Part shown: piece by piece, positions 45,174 through 51,304 of the stretch | Numbering within the stretch: the first letter of the stretch is position 1 | Layout of the letters: each line of letters opens with the position of its first letter | Origin: Streptomyces stelliscabiei | Lineage (GTDB): Bacteria; Actinomycetota; Actinomycetes; Streptomycetales; Streptomycetaceae | Direction: 5' to 3' | NCBI RefSeq assembly: GCF_014873495.1 | Contig: NZ_JADBGF010000001.1 | Span: forward strand, 2,790,001-2,854,000 | Length of the DNA stretch: 64,000 bases | Translations under genes and position numbers: made by a program | The notes under the pieces: generated by a model | The model's input: only the letters and a program-made list of their open reading frames with translations | What the model was told of the DNA's origin: nothing | Databases searched by the model: none

Positions 45174-45962
45174 CTAGCGGCGTTCCTGCTTCTGCTTGCA
45201 CTCCACACAGAGAGTGGCCCGGGGAAACGCCTGCATCCGTGCCTTTCCGATCGGATTGCCGCAGTTCTCGCAGAGGCCGTACGTGCCCGAGGCCAGCCGG
45301 TCCAGGGCGCGCTCGGTCTGGTCGAGCATCTCGCGCGCGTTGTGGGCCAGCGACAGCTCGTGCTCGCGCGTGATGTTCTTCGCCCCGGTGTCGGCCTGGT
45401 CGTCGCCGGCGCCGTCCCCCGAGTCCCGCATCAGGCCCGTGAGCGACCGCTCGGAGGCCTCCAGCTCGGCCCTCAGCCGCACGGCCTCGGACTGCAGCTC
45501 CGTGCGGGCCTCGGCGACCTCCTCCGGGCTCCAGGGGTCCTCGCCGGGCCGTACGGCCAGCTCGCCGGGCTCCACCGCGGCGGGCCGCGCCTTGGGGACG
45601 GCGGAGGGCTTCCGCTTCGCCGCCGTAGCCGTACCAGGAGTGTTCTTCGCAACCACCGTCGTGGCTCCCGTCGTCTCGGCGGCCTTGGCCGCGTCCGCCT
45701 TCTTGACCGTGCTCTTCTTCGCAGAGGGGCTCTTTGCCGCGCTCTTCGCCGTGCTCTTCCTGCCCGCGCTCTTCCTCGCGGCGGGCTTGTGCGCGTCGGC
45801 CTTCCCGACCGCCGCGGCCTCCTCGGCCGCCACCGTCGTCCCGGTCACCGTCGGCTTCCCGGTCGCCGTCGCCTTCTTGGCCGCGGTCTTCCTCACGGCC
45901 GTCCTCGCGGCGACCGTCCCTTCGGCCGCGGTCTTCTTCGCCACCGCCTTCTTCGCCACCAT
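45174..45962 (-). CDS. TraR/DksA zinc-finger protein with a histone-like N-terminus
   Basis: 262 residues. The first 130 are an Ala/Lys/Thr-rich repeat (AKKAVAKKTAAEGTVAARTA and so on) like histone H1 tails. The C-terminal domain is TraR/DksA-like, with a helical hairpin (ELQSEAVRLRAELEASERSL) and a four-Cys zinc finger (LCENCGNP and LCVECKQ). DksA proteins bind RNA polymerase with ppGpp; the basic tail may add DNA binding. The ATG at 45962 has GAAGGGG nine bases upstream and a good promoter at 46012-46040. Confidence 0.88.
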   Translation of the reverse strand: MVAKKAVAKKTAAEGTVAARTAVRKTAAKKATATGKPTVTGTTVAAEEAAAVGKADAHKPAARKSAGRKSTAKSAAKSPSAKKSTVKKADAAKAAETTGATTVVAKNTPGTATAAKRKPSAVPKARPAAVEPGELAVRPGEDPWSPEEVAEARTELQSEAVRLRAELEASERSLTGLMRDSGDGAGDDQADTGAKNITREHELSLAHNAREMLDQTERALDRLASGTYGLCENCGNPIGKARMQAFPRATLCVECKQKQERR

Positions 45963-46011
45963 GGCCGCGGCCCCTTCACATATGGTGATCTTGCACGCGA
46001 ATCGTGCTGGG

Positions 46012-46040
46012 ACGATAAATCGACCTGAGTCCCTCGGCAA
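46012..46040 (-). promoter_or_regulatory. Vegetative-type promoter of the TraR/DksA gene
   Basis: Read on the minus strand: TTGCCG as -35 (46035-46040), a 17-base spacer and TATCGT as -10 (46012-46017). This is a good match in sequence and spacing. The leader would be about 40 bases. Confidence 0.6.
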
Positions 46041-46282
46041 CGGGGCAGACCACCCGATTCTCCCACCTCACGGCCGTCACGCGACGAGCCTGCAAGCGTT
46101 GTGCCCAGCTCCCCGCCGGGTATTCCGCCCCGCCGGACGTCCCAGGATCCGGACGCCCCGCCCGCTCCATTCGGGTCACCCCGCAGGTCACCGCCCGCCC
46201 GGCCGCGAGGCCTGCCGAAGGCCCCGCCCCGCCCCTCCCGCGCGCCCTCGAAAACCGGTCGGCCGCCGTCCGCGCGGCGCCG

Positions 46283-46288
46283 TACACT
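46283..46288 (+). promoter_or_regulatory. -10-like TACACT upstream of the ileS T-box
   Basis: TACACT is a fair -10 and would start the mRNA near 46295, just where the T-box Stem I begins. The -35 is not clear. Confidence 0.45.
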
Positions 46289-46294
46289 GGGCGC

Positions 46295-46612
46295 AGCGAG
46301 AAGCGTGGATGGGGACGAGTAGCGTCGTACGCAGCCCAGAGCGACCCGGGGACGGTGGAAGCCCGGGGGCCAGCGCGATGTGAAGATCACCCCGGAGCCG
46401 CCGGAAGAAAGCCGCAGCCCATGGCGCCGTCCCTGGGGCGCGGCGAGTAGACCCGGTATCGCGACCTCAATGAGGGGGCTCACCGGCGCGTACGGCGCAC
46501 AGGGGGGCCAAGGAGGGTGGTACCGCGGGAGCGCGCCGCACACGGCGTACGAAGGATCGAAGCTCTCGTCCCTCCGACGGAAGGCAGCAAGTCCGTTGGA
46601 GGAAGCCCGCTC
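46295..46612 (+). promoter_or_regulatory. T-box leader of ileS (translational control)
   Basis: The T-box sequence AGGGTGGTACCGCGG lies at 46514-46528; UGGU would pair with the 3' end of tRNA-Ile (discriminator A). Stem I starts near 46300, and its distal part has CAGAGCGACC and GGTGGAAGCC. The likely specifier codon is ATC (46386-46388, in GAAGATCACC), an Ile codon. CCTCCGACGGA (46571-46581) pairs with TCCGTTGGAGG (46592-46602) and hides the Shine-Dalgarno GGAGG. CGTCCCT just before it can pair with the T-box. Uncharged tRNA-Ile should free the ribosome site. Confidence 0.88.
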
Positions 46613-49600
46613 ATGACAGAGCCGACGTACCGCCAGGTGCCCGCCCAGGTCGATCTGCCCGCGCTCGAGCACGCGGTGCTCGACTTCTGGCGCGACCAGA
46701 AGATCTTCGCCAAGAGCCTGGAGCAGTCCGAGGGCCGCCCCGAGTGGGTGTTCTACGAAGGACCGCCCACCGCCAACGGCATGCCGGGCGCCCACCACAT
46801 CGAGGCCCGCGTCTTCAAGGACGTCTTCCCGCGCTTCCGCACGATGCGCGGCTACCACGTGGCCCGCAAGGCCGGCTGGGACTGCCACGGCCTCCCGGTG
46901 GAGCTGGCGGTCGAGAAGGAACTCGGCTTCAACGGCAAGAAGGACATCGAGGCGTACGGCATCGCCGAGTTCAACGCCAGGTGCCGCGACTCGGTGACCC
47001 GGCACACCGACGCCTTCACCGAGCTGACGACCCGCATGGGCTACTGGGTCGACCTCGACGACGCCTACCGGACCATGGACCCCGAGTACGTGGAGTCCGT
47101 CTGGTGGTCGCTCAAGGAGATCTTCGGCAAGGGTCTGCTGGTCCAGGACCACCGCGTCGCCCCCTGGTGCCCCCGCTGCGGCACCGGCCTGTCGGACCAC
47201 GAGCTGGCGCAGGGCTACGAGACGGTCGTCGACCCCTCGGTGTACGTCCGTTTCCCGCTCACCTCCGGTCCGCTCGCCGACGAGGCAGCGCTCCTGGTGT
47301 GGACGACCACGCCGTGGACGCTGGTGTCCAACACCGCGGTCGCCGCCCACCCCGAGGTCACCTACGTGGTCGCCACGGACGGCACGGAGAAGCTCGTCGT
47401 CGCCGAGCCGCTCGTCGCCAAGGCGCTCGGCGAGGGCTGGGAGACCACCGGCCAGACCTTCACCGGCGCCGAAATGGAGCGCTGGACCTATCAACGTCCG
47501 TTCGACCTCGTGGAGTTCCCGGAAACGGCGCATTTCGTCGTCAACGCCGAATACGTCACCACCGAGGACGGTACGGGCCTGGTCCACCAGTCCCCCGCCT
47601 TCGGCGAGGACGACCTCAAGGTCTGCCGCGCGTACGGCCTGCCCGTAGTGAACCCCGTCCGTCCCGACGGCACCTTCGAGGAGGAGGTCCCCCTCGTCGG
47701 CGGCGTCTTCTTCAAGAAGGCGGACGAAAAGCTCACCGAGGACCTCCAGCAGCGCGGCCTGCTCTTCAGGCACATCCCGTACGAGCACAGCTACCCGCAC
47801 TGCTGGCGCTGCCACACCGCGCTCCTGTACTACGCGCAGCCGTCCTGGTACATCCGCACCACCGCCGTCAAGGACCGTCTCCTCCAGGAGAACGAGAAGA
47901 CCAACTGGTTCCCGGACTCGGTCAAGCACGGCCGCTTCGGCGACTGGCTGAACAACAACATCGACTGGGCCCTCTCCCGCAGCCGCTACTGGGGCACCCC
48001 GCTGCCGATCTGGCGCTGCGAGGAGAACCACCTCACCTGCGTGGGCTCCCGCGAGGAGCTGAGCCGCCTCTCCGGCACCGACCAGTCCGAGCTGGACCCG
48101 CACCGCCCGTTCATCGACGCGGTCACCTTCCCGTGCCCCGAGGACGGCTGCGGCGCCACCGCCACGCGCGTCCCGGAGGTGATCGACGCCTGGTACGACT
48201 CGGGTTCGATGCCGTTCGCGCAGTGGGGCTACCCGTACAAGAACAAGGAACTCTTCGAGTCCCGCTACCCGGCGCAGTTCATCAGCGAGGCCATCGACCA
48301 GACCCGCGGCTGGTTCTACACGCTGATGGCCGTCGGCACCCTGGTCTTCGACAGGTCGTCGTACGAGAACGTCGTCTGCCTCGGCCACATCCTCGCCGAG
48401 GACGGCCGCAAGATGTCCAAGCACCTGGGCAACATCCTGCAGCCGATCCCGCTCATGGACCAGCACGGCGCCGACGCCGTCCGCTGGTTCATGGCGGCAG
48501 GCGGCTCCCCCTGGGCGGCCCGCCGCGTGGGCCACGGCACCATCCAGGAGGTCGTCCGCAAGACCCTCCTCACCTACTGGAACACGGTCGCCTTCCAGGC
48601 CCTGTACGCCCGCACGTCGAACTGGGCGCCCAGCGCGGCGGACCCGGCCCCGGCCGACCGCCCGGTCCTGGACCGCTGGCTGCTGTCGGAACTCCACGCC
48701 CTCACCGACCAGGTGACCGGGGCCCTGGAGGCCTACGACACCCAGCGCGCCGGCAAGCTCCTCTCGGCGTTCGTCGACGATCTGTCGAACTGGTACGTAC
48801 GCCGGTCGCGCCGTCGTTTCTGGCAGGGCGACAAGGCGGCGCTGCGCACCCTGCACGAGGTCGTCGAGACGGTCACCAAGCTGATGGCCCCGCTGACCCC
48901 GTTCATCACCGAGCGGGTCTGGCAGGACCTGATCGTGCCGGTCTCCCCGCAGGCCCCCGAGTCCGTGCACCTGGCCTCCTGGCCGGAGGTCGACCTCTCC
49001 GCGATCGACCCCGAGCTGTCCAGGCAGATGGTCCTGGTCCGCCGCCTGGTGGAGCTGGGCCGCGCCACACGCGCGGAGTCGGGCGTCAAGACCCGCCAGC
49101 CCCTCTCGCGCGCCCTGGTGGCCGCCACGGGCTTCGACTCCCTCGACCCCGAACTGCACGCGCAGATCACGGAGGAGCTGAACGTCAGCTCGCTCGCCTC
49201 GCTCTCCGAGGTCGGCGGCTCCCTGGTGGACACCACCGCCAAGGCCAACTTCCGCGCGCTGGGCAAGCGCTTCGGCAAGCGGGTCCAGGACGTGGCCAAG
49301 GCCGTGGCGGGCGCCGACGCGGCCGCCCTGTCCCTCGCCCTGCGCGAGGGCACCGCCTCGGTCGAGGTCGACGGTGAGACCGTCACCCTGGCCCCCGACG
49401 AGGTCATCATCACGGAGACCCCGCGCGAGGGCTGGTCGGTGGCCTCCGACTCGGGCGCCACGGTCGCCCTCGACCTGGAGATCACGGAGGAGCTGCGGCA
49501 GGCGGGCCTGGCCCGTGACGCGATCCGCCTGATCCAGGAGGCCCGCAAGAACAGCGGCCTCGACGTCGCCGACCGTATCGCCCTGCGCTGGACGGCCACG

Positions 49601-49756
49601 GACCCGGCGGTCACGGCCGCCCTGACCGAACATTCGCCGCTGATCGCCGACGAGGTCCTCGCCACGGACTTCGCCACCGGCGAGGGCGACGAGACCTTCG
49701 GCACGCCCTTCACGGACGAGGGCCTGACCCTGGCGTTCCGCCTCCGCAAGGCGTAG
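46613..49756 (+). CDS. ileS: Isoleucyl-tRNA synthetase, type 2, with a GAHH signature
   Basis: A 1047-residue class I synthetase that charges tRNA-Ile. The catalytic HIGH region reads PPTANGMPGAHHIEARVF, so the canonical HxGH is replaced by GAHH (residues 59-62). The other signature, KMSKH, is normal (600-604). An editing CP1 domain is present (LLVWTTTPWTLVSNTAVA). The length and C-terminal domain suit the eukaryote-like IleRS2. The GXHH form is known to keep activity and to be linked to very high mupirocin resistance. The ATG at 46613 has a Shine-Dalgarno held in the T-box hairpin. Confidence 0.96.
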   Translation: MTEPTYRQVPAQVDLPALEHAVLDFWRDQKIFAKSLEQSEGRPEWVFYEGPPTANGMPGAHHIEARVFKDVFPRFRTMRGYHVARKAGWDCHGLPVELAVEKELGFNGKKDIEAYGIAEFNARCRDSVTRHTDAFTELTTRMGYWVDLDDAYRTMDPEYVESVWWSLKEIFGKGLLVQDHRVAPWCPRCGTGLSDHELAQGYETVVDPSVYVRFPLTSGPLADEAALLVWTTTPWTLVSNTAVAAHPEVTYVVATDGTEKLVVAEPLVAKALGEGWETTGQTFTGAEMERWTYQRPFDLVEFPETAHFVVNAEYVTTEDGTGLVHQSPAFGEDDLKVCRAYGLPVVNPVRPDGTFEEEVPLVGGVFFKKADEKLTEDLQQRGLLFRHIPYEHSYPHCWRCHTALLYYAQPSWYIRTTAVKDRLLQENEKTNWFPDSVKHGRFGDWLNNNIDWALSRSRYWGTPLPIWRCEENHLTCVGSREELSRLSGTDQSELDPHRPFIDAVTFPCPEDGCGATATRVPEVIDAWYDSGSMPFAQWGYPYKNKELFESRYPAQFISEAIDQTRGWFYTLMAVGTLVFDRSSYENVVCLGHILAEDGRKMSKHLGNILQPIPLMDQHGADAVRWFMAAGGSPWAARRVGHGTIQEVVRKTLLTYWNTVAFQALYARTSNWAPSAADPAPADRPVLDRWLLSELHALTDQVTGALEAYDTQRAGKLLSAFVDDLSNWYVRRSRRRFWQGDKAALRTLHEVVETVTKLMAPLTPFITERVWQDLIVPVSPQAPESVHLASWPEVDLSAIDPELSRQMVLVRRLVELGRATRAESGVKTRQPLSRALVAATGFDSLDPELHAQITEELNVSSLASLSEVGGSLVDTTAKANFRALGKRFGKRVQDVAKAVAGADAAALSLALREGTASVEVDGETVTLAPDEVIITETPREGWSVASDSGATVALDLEITEELRQAGLARDAIRLIQEARKNSGLDVADRIALRWTATDPAVTAALTEHSPLIADEVLATDFATGEGDETFGTPFTDEGLTLAFRLRKA

Positions 49757-49763
49757 CGCCATC

Positions 49764-49793
49764 GCCCTGCTCGCCCGGGTCGGCGAGCAGGGC
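49764..49793 (+). terminator. First hairpin after ileS
   Basis: A perfect 12-bp stem (GCCCTGCTCGCC with its complement) and six-base loop, seven bases past the stop. Confidence 0.75.
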
Positions 49794-49824
49794 CCCGCTC
49801 CGCACCACCCCGGGCGACCAAGAA

Positions 49825-49862
49825 GGCCTGGGGCGCCGTGAGAGATCTCGGCGCCCCGGGCC
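49825..49862. terminator. Second hairpin between ileS and divIVA
   Basis: GGCCTGGGGCGCCG and CGGCGCCCCGGGCC form a 14-bp stem with one G-T pair and a 10-base loop. It lies in the centre of the convergent gap. Confidence 0.65.
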
Positions 49863-49936
49863 TTCGGCGTTGTGTCCGCCGCACATCCGCGCGCATCCCC
49901 GCGCTACCGCCCCGCCCCGGGGCCCGCACGGCAAAA

Positions 49937-49972
49937 GGGCGGGGCCCCGGAAAGAAATCCGGGGCCCCGCCC
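49937..49972 (-). terminator. Terminator of divIVA with a T run
   Basis: A perfect 15-bp stem (GGGCGGGGCCCCGGA with its complement) and six-base loop. Read on the minus strand it is followed by TTTT, the classical intrinsic terminator layout, 36 bases past the divIVA stop. Confidence 0.88.
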
Positions 49973-50008
49973 TGAACGCTGCCGACGCCTACGGCGTACC
50001 AGTAATCG

Positions 50009-51304
50009 TCAGTTGTCGTCCTCGTCGATCAGGAACCCGCGCATCGGCGAGGGAGCCTGTCCCATCGGAGAGGGACCCTGCGGCCGGACCGGAGCCATCG
50101 GCTGGGTCATGGCGGGCGACATCTGCTGCTGACCGCCGTAGGAGGGCCCGGCCGGAGACGGGGCGCCGCCCATGCCTCCACCCATGCCTCCGCCCATACC
50201 GCCCGGGTTGCCGCCGTACGACGGGGCGCTCGCGCCGGCCGGAGCCATGGAGGGCGCCGGGGACGGCGGCAGCGACGCGGTCGCCGGGGTGCGCGGCGGG
50301 GCCAGCGAGTCGTCCGCCTGGGTCTCCAGCTGACGCAGCTGCGACTCCAGGTACGACTTCAGACGCGTGCGGTACTCGCGCTCGAAGCCGCGCAGGTCCT
50401 CGACCTTGCGCTCCAGCGTGGCGCGGGCGGACTCCAGGGAGCCCATCGCGACGCGGTGCTTCTCCTGCGCGTCCCGCTCCAGCGCGTCGGCCTTGGCACG
50501 GGCGTCCCGCTCCAGACCCTCGGCGCGGCTACGGGCCTCACCGACGATCTTGTTGGCCTCGGAACGGGCCTCGGCGATCGCCTGGTCGGCGGTCTGCTGG
50601 GCCAGCGAGAGCACACGCGCGGCGCTGTCGCCGCCGGGACCCTGGCCGGGGCCGCCCATCGGACCGCCCATGGGGCCGCCCATCGGACCGCCCATCTGCT
50701 GCATGGGAGGCTGGCCGCCCATGGGACCCTGGCCCATCTGACCCTGGCCCATCTGCTGCTGCATCTGGCCCTGACCCATGGGGCCCTGGCCCATCGGTCC
50801 CTGCCCCATCGGGCCGGGACCCTGCTGCCCACCCTGGCCACCGGGGCCGGCGGGCAGCTGCGGAGCACCGCTCGGCAGCTGGGGCGGGCCACCCATGGGG
50901 CCCCCCATCTGCTGCGGCGGGCCCGATATCCCAGCGGGTACGGGTCCACCGGGACCGCGCATACCCTGCTGCTGCATGCCGCCTTGCTGCATACCGCCTT
51001 GCTGCATGCCACCCTGCTGCATGCCGCCCTGCTGCATACCCTGCTGCTGCATGCCACCCTGCTGCATGCCGCCCTGCTGCTGGTCCTGAGGCTCCGGGGG
51101 CTTGCGCATGTTCTGCTGGTTCTGGGCAGCAGCACGCGTGGCCGCGGCCAGTTTGGCGCGCAGGTCCTCGTTCTCGCGTAGCAGGCGCGTCAGTTCGGCT
51201 TCGACCTCGTCGAGGAAGGCATCGACCTCGTCCTCGTCATAGCCTTCTCGGAGGCGGACGGTCGTGAACTGCTTGTTCCGCACGTCCTCGGGGGTCAACG
51301 GCAT
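50009..51304 (-). CDS. divIVA: DivIVA/Wag31 polar growth protein
   Basis: 431 residues. The conserved N-terminal membrane-curvature domain starts [20 protein letters not shown] and leads into the first coiled coil ([20 protein letters not shown]). A Gln/Met/Gly/Pro-rich linker (about 70-210) follows, then a second long coiled coil ([20 protein letters not shown] onward) and a Gly/Pro-rich tail ending FLIDEDDN. In Streptomyces DivIVA marks hyphal tips and directs apical growth and branching. GAGG lies seven bases before the ATG. It is cotranscribed-like with yggT and sepF upstream. Confidence 0.97.
50960..51082. repeat. Imperfect 15-base tandem repeats in divIVA
   Basis: Units such as TGCTGCATGCCGCCC recur about eight times, encoding MQQGG and MQQQG blocks. 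The array is a coding low-complexity tract that may expand or shrink by slippage. Confidence 0.75.

Follow-up and report, generated by a model that had tools for sequence, protein, structure and literature searches.

The isoleucyl-tRNA synthetase (IleRS) of Streptomyces stelliscabiei is a type 2 enzyme that carries GAHH at the place of the HXGH signature, as if residues 1 and 3 of the signature had been swapped to give GXHH. It is almost certainly an ordinary housekeeping GXHH IleRS2 for which a millimolar inhibition constant (Ki) for mupirocin is to be expected, and its gene, ileS, is preceded by a probable translational T-box. A catalytic signature common to the whole enzyme class is here rearranged in an essential enzyme of an antibiotic-producing genus, and uniformly so in the members examined. 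The preliminary description of this feature was correct and well interpreted, yet the feature is already known and is normal for Streptomyces, so that the GAHH observation itself adds one more strain to it.

In the window, i.e. the whole stretch of 64,000 nucleotides that was analysed, ileS occupies positions 46613-49756 of the forward strand, starting from the ATG at 46613. Its product of 1047 amino acids is an IleRS according to the NCBIfam model TIGR00392 (902.4 bits; cut-off 621.4) and contains the Pfam domains PF00133, PF08264, and PF19302. The gene spells PPTANGMPGAHH around GAHH, and the context of the motif is EGPPTANGMPGAHHIEARVFKD. Residues 59-62 are encoded by the codons GGC GCC CAC CAC at 46787-46798 (forward strand), which give G59, A60, H61, and H62; with Gly59 and His61 the protein shows the G/AXHH sequence pattern, in which position 1 is Gly or Ala and position 3 is His. 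Among the structures used for comparison, 1ile is presumably the IleRS2 of Thermus (T. thermophilus) and 1ffy presumably the Staphylococcus enzyme. The entry 8c8v is the wild-type IleRS2 of Priestia megaterium, and 8c8w is its swapped GVHH mutant (PMC10485003). In gapless phmmer alignments, residues 59-62 face HVGH of 1ile and 8c8v, as well as GVHH of 8c8w. The assignment to type 2 is based on phmmer scores: 1ile and the IleRS2 chains of Priestia reach 888-910 bits, whereas 1ffy and the IleRS1 chains of Priestia reach 350-358 bits, so the protein is far closer to IleRS2. Both the codons and this alignment with IleRS1 and IleRS2 structures, which had been proposed as a check, bear out the original reading of residues 59-62. 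An AlphaFold model built from a 10-row Streptomyces alignment had a mean pLDDT of 37.8.

The S. stelliscabiei genome, which comprises 10,497,710 bases on 3 contigs and is scored as 100% complete, passes the TIGR00392 cut-off once only. No second IleRS was found in this genome; with the protein as query, the only other matches, the best of them at 113.9 bits, are fragments of two ValRS-type genes with 27-29% identity. Judged by eye, one flank of ileS presumably holds RluD-, LspA-, and TraR/DksA-like genes and the other flank DivIVA-, YggT-, PgeF-, FtsZ-, FtsQ-, MurG-, FtsW-, and MraY-like genes, and no antibiotic cluster was recognised by eye in this list of neighbours. That ileS is an extra, acquired resistance IleRS beside a sensitive copy, in the manner of MupA on staphylococcal plasmids, would agree with the presence of two IleRS in some bacteria and with two relatives (G033 and G035) in which a GTHH gene is accompanied by a HYGH gene. 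It is nevertheless extremely improbable here and was rejected, since only one IleRS was found in the genome; moreover, the neighbours look by eye like cell division and cell wall genes, a T-box-like leader precedes the gene, and the NCBIfam exception models for MupA and MupB give 760.3 and 746 bits, below their cut-off of 1900.

Two ValRS-like genes of this genome lie outside the window, at G000:C1:6757562-6760009 and 3832754-3835015 (L246 and L247). They are 81% identical across 887 aligned positions and both have HLGH and KMSKS; one of them adjoins housekeeping-looking genes, and the other lies in a stretch with few high-GC3 genes called. Within the window, the central part of the DivIVA-like gene (50009-51304, reverse strand) contains long low-complexity stretches of Gly, Met, and Gln.

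The motif is the same throughout the Streptomyces examined. Among orthologous loci, all of the best 80 of 582 encode GPPTANGMPGAHH (79 are titled Streptomyces and one 'Actinobacteria bacterium OV320'), and they do so with eight synonymous nucleotide forms of the four codons, all of which read GAHH. GAHH was likewise present in 24 of 24 same-genus genomes in a search of relatives, and the pattern [GA]XHH matched in 40 of 40 same-genus genomes, S. stelliscabiei included, in a survey of the class; these three sets may overlap in species. Since GAHH deviates from a class I signature that is nearly universal, one might suspect a decayed gene or an error of sequencing or assembly, but the probability of this is close to nil: identical residues occur at all 80 orthologous loci together with synonymous variation, the frame runs for 1047 codons without a stop, and no other IleRS was found although the genome is scored as 100% complete. 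The sequencing error at 46787-46798 that the preliminary description had considered is therefore ruled out. Its suggestion that this strain may have a tolerant IleRS is supported; the motif is not special to the strain, being present in every Streptomyces examined and common in the class. In a draft genome of Streptomyces jumonjinensis (L111), ileS has an in-frame stop at codon 251 and still encodes GAHH; this stop is probably a sequence error because ileS should be essential.

Enzymes of this kind were described by Brkic et al. (2023) as G/AXHH IleRS2, with S. griseus named as a carrier (PMC10485003), and the mupirocin Ki of S. griseus IleRS is reported as 10 mM (PMC4861432). The IleRS2 of S. 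griseus subsp. griseus NRRL WC-3645 (L094) is a 92% identical ortholog of the S. stelliscabiei protein, and both have GAHH at residues 59-62, KMSKH at 600-604, and AFGEDD from 329; the two are different species, and the strain assayed in the paper is possibly not the one compared here. Therefore, the S. stelliscabiei gene is a further ortholog of an enzyme kind already described. In Deinococcus radiodurans, whose IleRS2 is set beside that of S. stelliscabiei on the basis of its published description, the motif is also naturally non-canonical and differs in the Ala at position 1 (ALHH), and the mupirocin Ki is 6.6 mM (PMC10485003). In Deinococcus IleRS2, motif exchange shifts the Ki 823-fold; the shift is around 200-fold for the Thermus and Priestia enzymes, with about 430-fold stated for the latter where that paper discusses its results, and an IleRS1 given the swapped motif is inactive (PMC10485003). 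The Thermus and Priestia enzymes (1ile, 8c8v) lie on the same side of the IleRS2 tree as that of S. stelliscabiei and share its PPTANG flank but differ from it in their canonical HVGH and KMSKS.

By analogy with these enzymes, His61 of S. stelliscabiei IleRS would take over the catalytic work of the absent first His, as published for the position-3 His of a P. megaterium IleRS2 mutant (PMC10485003). IleRS2 tolerates the swap because the helix that carries its motif lies at a greater distance from the adenine. When mupirocin is bound, the motif would shift back and the extra His would clash with the drug, so that the Ki should be millimolar. The structural basis for this scheme comes from P. 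megaterium IleRS2, which was studied by crystallography and modelling (PMC10485003). Activity combined with mupirocin resistance in type 2 IleRS with a swapped GXHH, which the preliminary description had cited as known, is indeed published (PMC10485003, PMC4861432). Since the enzyme is a swapped type 2 GXHH form and the only IleRS found, a mupirocin-tolerant housekeeping IleRS, as first proposed, is the best reading; it is based on the 92% identical S. griseus ortholog, which has GAHH, KMSKH, and Asp333 at identical residue numbers, on the Ki of 10 mM published for S. griseus IleRS, and on the published motif exchanges in three other IleRS2.

To place the motif in a wider context, 394 genomes of the class were surveyed. 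The general pattern matched in 381 genomes, HXGH in 104, and [GA]XHH in 276, and neither of the latter two in fifteen. An HMM search added three GXHH genomes with altered flanks (PPTGNG in G270 and G368, PPTTNG in G369), and one HXGH match, GPPAATGAHHDGH in G281, was discarded as a chance match, being unlike the IleRS rows and coming from a genome that also has a GXHH match, which leaves 103 rather than 104. The final tally is 279 GXHH genomes, with the count taken from the per-genome table, 103 HXGH genomes (102 HYGH and one HFGH), and 12 unreadable ones; the last comprise six in which the match starts only beyond the motif, where a contig ends or is broken, five with nothing but matches of less than 240 bits, and G121. 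The latter was rejected as an in-between case: the first ~90 bases of its contig are presumably IleRS1-like and join the body of an IleRS2 at GWDCHGLPVE, close to where the contig ends, so that it is probably an assembly chimera. No intermediate, half-way motif was seen in the 382 readable genomes of the class. Phe follows GPP in all 103 HXGH rows; among the matches listed, Thr follows it in all GXHH rows and none has Ala at position 1 of the motif.

A survey of the phylum (149 genomes, 12 of them shared with the class survey) used a narrower pattern that required Pro before the motif, so that IleRS1 genes would escape it; it matched in 92 genomes, hand-counted as 75 GXHH and 17 HXGH, and left 57 of the 149 unclassified. 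Again, no intermediate motif was seen in the 92 matched genomes. The sample as a whole consists of Actinomycetota plus a few single sequences. In f27, a family with small genomes, every genome sampled had GXHH. Both forms occur in genus g30 of family f28, with HYGH in three genomes (G064, G153, and G388) and GXHH in nine (G142, G266, G284, G293, G309, G317, G364, G372, and G396). A second, eukaryote-like HYGH IleRS gene is present beside the GTHH one in two relatives from the same taxonomic order, G033 (C1:9559416-9561953, L137) and G035 (C53:11221-13788, L136). Two other assemblies contain more than one IleRS match: two separate GVHH matches in G090 (C65:15329-15367 and C94:69904-69942), which may stand for two genes or for two strains, and a full GTHH IleRS together with a partial second IleRS with KMSKH in G369 (C307 and C296; L121 and L138).

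A tree of IleRS sequences was constructed from 110 rows by a quick method without bootstrap; the motif columns were kept (a few of 1089), the fragments L160 and L162 were dropped, and no IleRS1 row was included. S. stelliscabiei IleRS belongs to a group of 71 GXHH rows (support 97), where its neighbours are G014 and S. griseus; the 35 HYGH rows of Actinomycetota lie on one side of a branch with support 100. The HYGH IleRS2 of other Actinomycetota and the eukaryotic cytosolic IleRS are of type 2, as is the S. stelliscabiei enzyme, but these eukaryote-like enzymes differ from it in having PPFANGLPHYGH and, in most cases, KMSKS, and in forming a separate deep clade. The two remaining GXHH sequences, from Parabacteroides, which forms a long branch, and from G434, are placed close to P. 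megaterium IleRS2, although the branch that does so is uncertain. As drawn, the tree requires two motif changes or more, whereas its supported branches alone are compatible with one. The Parabacteroides sequence (L211, P. distasonis, a plasmid-collection record) has GIHH, KMSKR, and PPSANG, and its gene adjoins genes for TraR/DksA and lipoprotein signal peptidase; therefore, the swap is not confined to Actinomycetota, and some of the gene order is likewise shared with Bacteroidota.

Columns were then filtered for a single residue that at least 93% of the GXHH rows share, that neither 1ile nor 8c8v has, and that occurs in at most 10% of the HYGH rows. Five columns passed (59, 61, 68, 449, and 560). 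Of these, 59 and 61 alone show no exception among the 73 GXHH rows when compared with the 35 HYGH rows, Thermus, and Priestia. Therefore, no fixed second change accompanying GXHH was seen across these rows by this filter, which is blind to changes shared by several residue types.

Since the HXGH genes of the class form a separate deep IleRS2 lineage, lineages within the class seem to have swapped whole genes. The g30 rows in the tree (three HYGH and five GXHH) are split between the two separate groups, and both kinds of gene are found in G033 and G035; motif changes within the class therefore look like gene replacement rather than point mutation, as judged from one quick tree and a sample of one phylum. 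The absence of intermediates together with these apparent whole-gene exchanges is the part that is possibly worth following up. Both forms occur in one genus as separate gene lineages, so that closely related strains can be used to study the route from one to the other, and the wider question is now testable.

The swap may also have been kept for a reason other than mupirocin, either another IleRS inhibitor that streptomycetes encounter or produce, or deep inheritance with single-step returns blocked; this is a possibility to be considered, though not the probable one. The uniformity of GXHH in whole lineages, f27 included, and the lack of any intermediate in the 382 readable class genomes are in keeping with it. 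As to an inhibitor, the Streptomyces compound reveromycin A inhibits eukaryotic IleRS, contacting the motif residue His54 via its hemisuccinate through water, and an F48Y variant binds it weakly (PMC7955072). Thr53 and Gly59 of S. stelliscabiei IleRS stand at these contact positions when yeast positions 48 and 54 are matched by hand from residue ranges, which suggests that the GXHH/PPT form may also be safe from reveromycin-type compounds. However, bacterial IleRS are insensitive to reveromycin A, which is put down to other residues as well (PMC7955072), and the authors of the mupirocin work favour that drug as the pressure (PMC10485003, PMC4861432). One possible evolutionary scheme, more speculative and rather doubtful as a whole, is a one-way street: GXHH would be inherited in much of Actinomycetota, single-change intermediates would be unfit, and return would occur only via a whole HYGH gene, while the pressure may come from IleRS inhibitors made by actinomycetes or their neighbours and not from mupirocin. 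The incoming eukaryote-like HYGH gene is sometimes still found beside the old GXHH gene, as in G033 and G035.

The loop at residues 600-604 (48410-48424, forward strand) reads KMSKH, a variant of KMSKS. Its earlier description as normal is inexact, for residue 604 is His where 1ile and 8c8v carry the canonical Ser. Across the 73 GXHH rows this residue is His in 48, Ser in 21, and Arg in 4, compared with Ser in 34 of 35 HYGH rows. A fixed link between GXHH and KMSKH was rejected: it looks total within the class, where the GXHH rows that were read have His604, but most GXHH genes of other classes carry KMSKS or KMSKR, although that of G434, from another class, has KMSKH. Because a test of the association on the tree has one or two independent pairs only, and given KMSKS and KMSKR in other classes, KMSKH is best read as a trait of the lineage and not as a requirement for GXHH. 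Among the literature matches listed, no paper contains KMSKH.

Three further residues can be compared with known sites. Thr53 of PPTANG (46769-46771, forward strand) corresponds in the column comparison to Phe in the HYGH lineage; residue 53 is Thr in 72 of the 73 GXHH rows, Ser in one, and Phe in 35 of 35 HYGH rows. His592 (48386-48388, forward strand) aligns with His582 of P. megaterium IleRS2, which is Phe586 in the IleRS1 of that organism, with the offset of 10 worked out by hand; the roles of the Priestia residues are described in PMC10485003. Asp333 (47609-47611, forward strand) shares its number with the editing-site Asp333 of S. griseus IleRS, tested there as D333A (PMC4861432), and AFGEDD starts at 329 in both proteins.

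Upstream of ileS, on the same strand, the Rfam T-box model RF00230 matches in two pieces, a stem I part at 46303-46398 (46.9 bits, E 2.2e-9) and a 3' part at 46469-46573 (17.2 bits, E 0.098), both below its gathering score of 93; at gathering score, no Rfam family matches in 45900-50100. An ATC (Ile) triplet at 46386-46388 probably serves as the specifier, as it stands at the position expected for one. The T-box core AGGGTGGTACCGCGG lies in the 3' part at 46514-46528, and it is followed by a hairpin at 46571-46602 that buries a Shine-Dalgarno-like GGAGG (46598-46602). The fold of 46566-46616 has -19.4 kcal/mol with a modest z of -1.99, and 5 of 200 shuffles are at least as stable. Because the core, the triplet, and the hairpin are all present, the leader looks like a translational T-box, albeit under the Rfam threshold.

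A strict core pattern is found upstream of ileS in all of the best 80 of 582 orthologous loci. It occurs in 119 of 125 GXHH rows versus 1 of 9 HXGH rows, counting loci with at least 450 bases upstream of the motif and including duplicate genes (L001 and L038; L136 with L245; L137 with L244); it was not found upstream of the second, HYGH IleRS gene of G033 and G035. Translational T-boxes upstream of actinobacterial ileS are published (PMC1262725), and the S. stelliscabiei leader resembles them in its core and in the hairpin over the Shine-Dalgarno sequence, but differs in scoring under the Rfam gathering score and in being known here from sequence alone. If the leader acts in this strain as those do, accumulation of uncharged tRNA-Ile would probably lead the T-box to open the ribosome site and thereby allow expression of IleRS.
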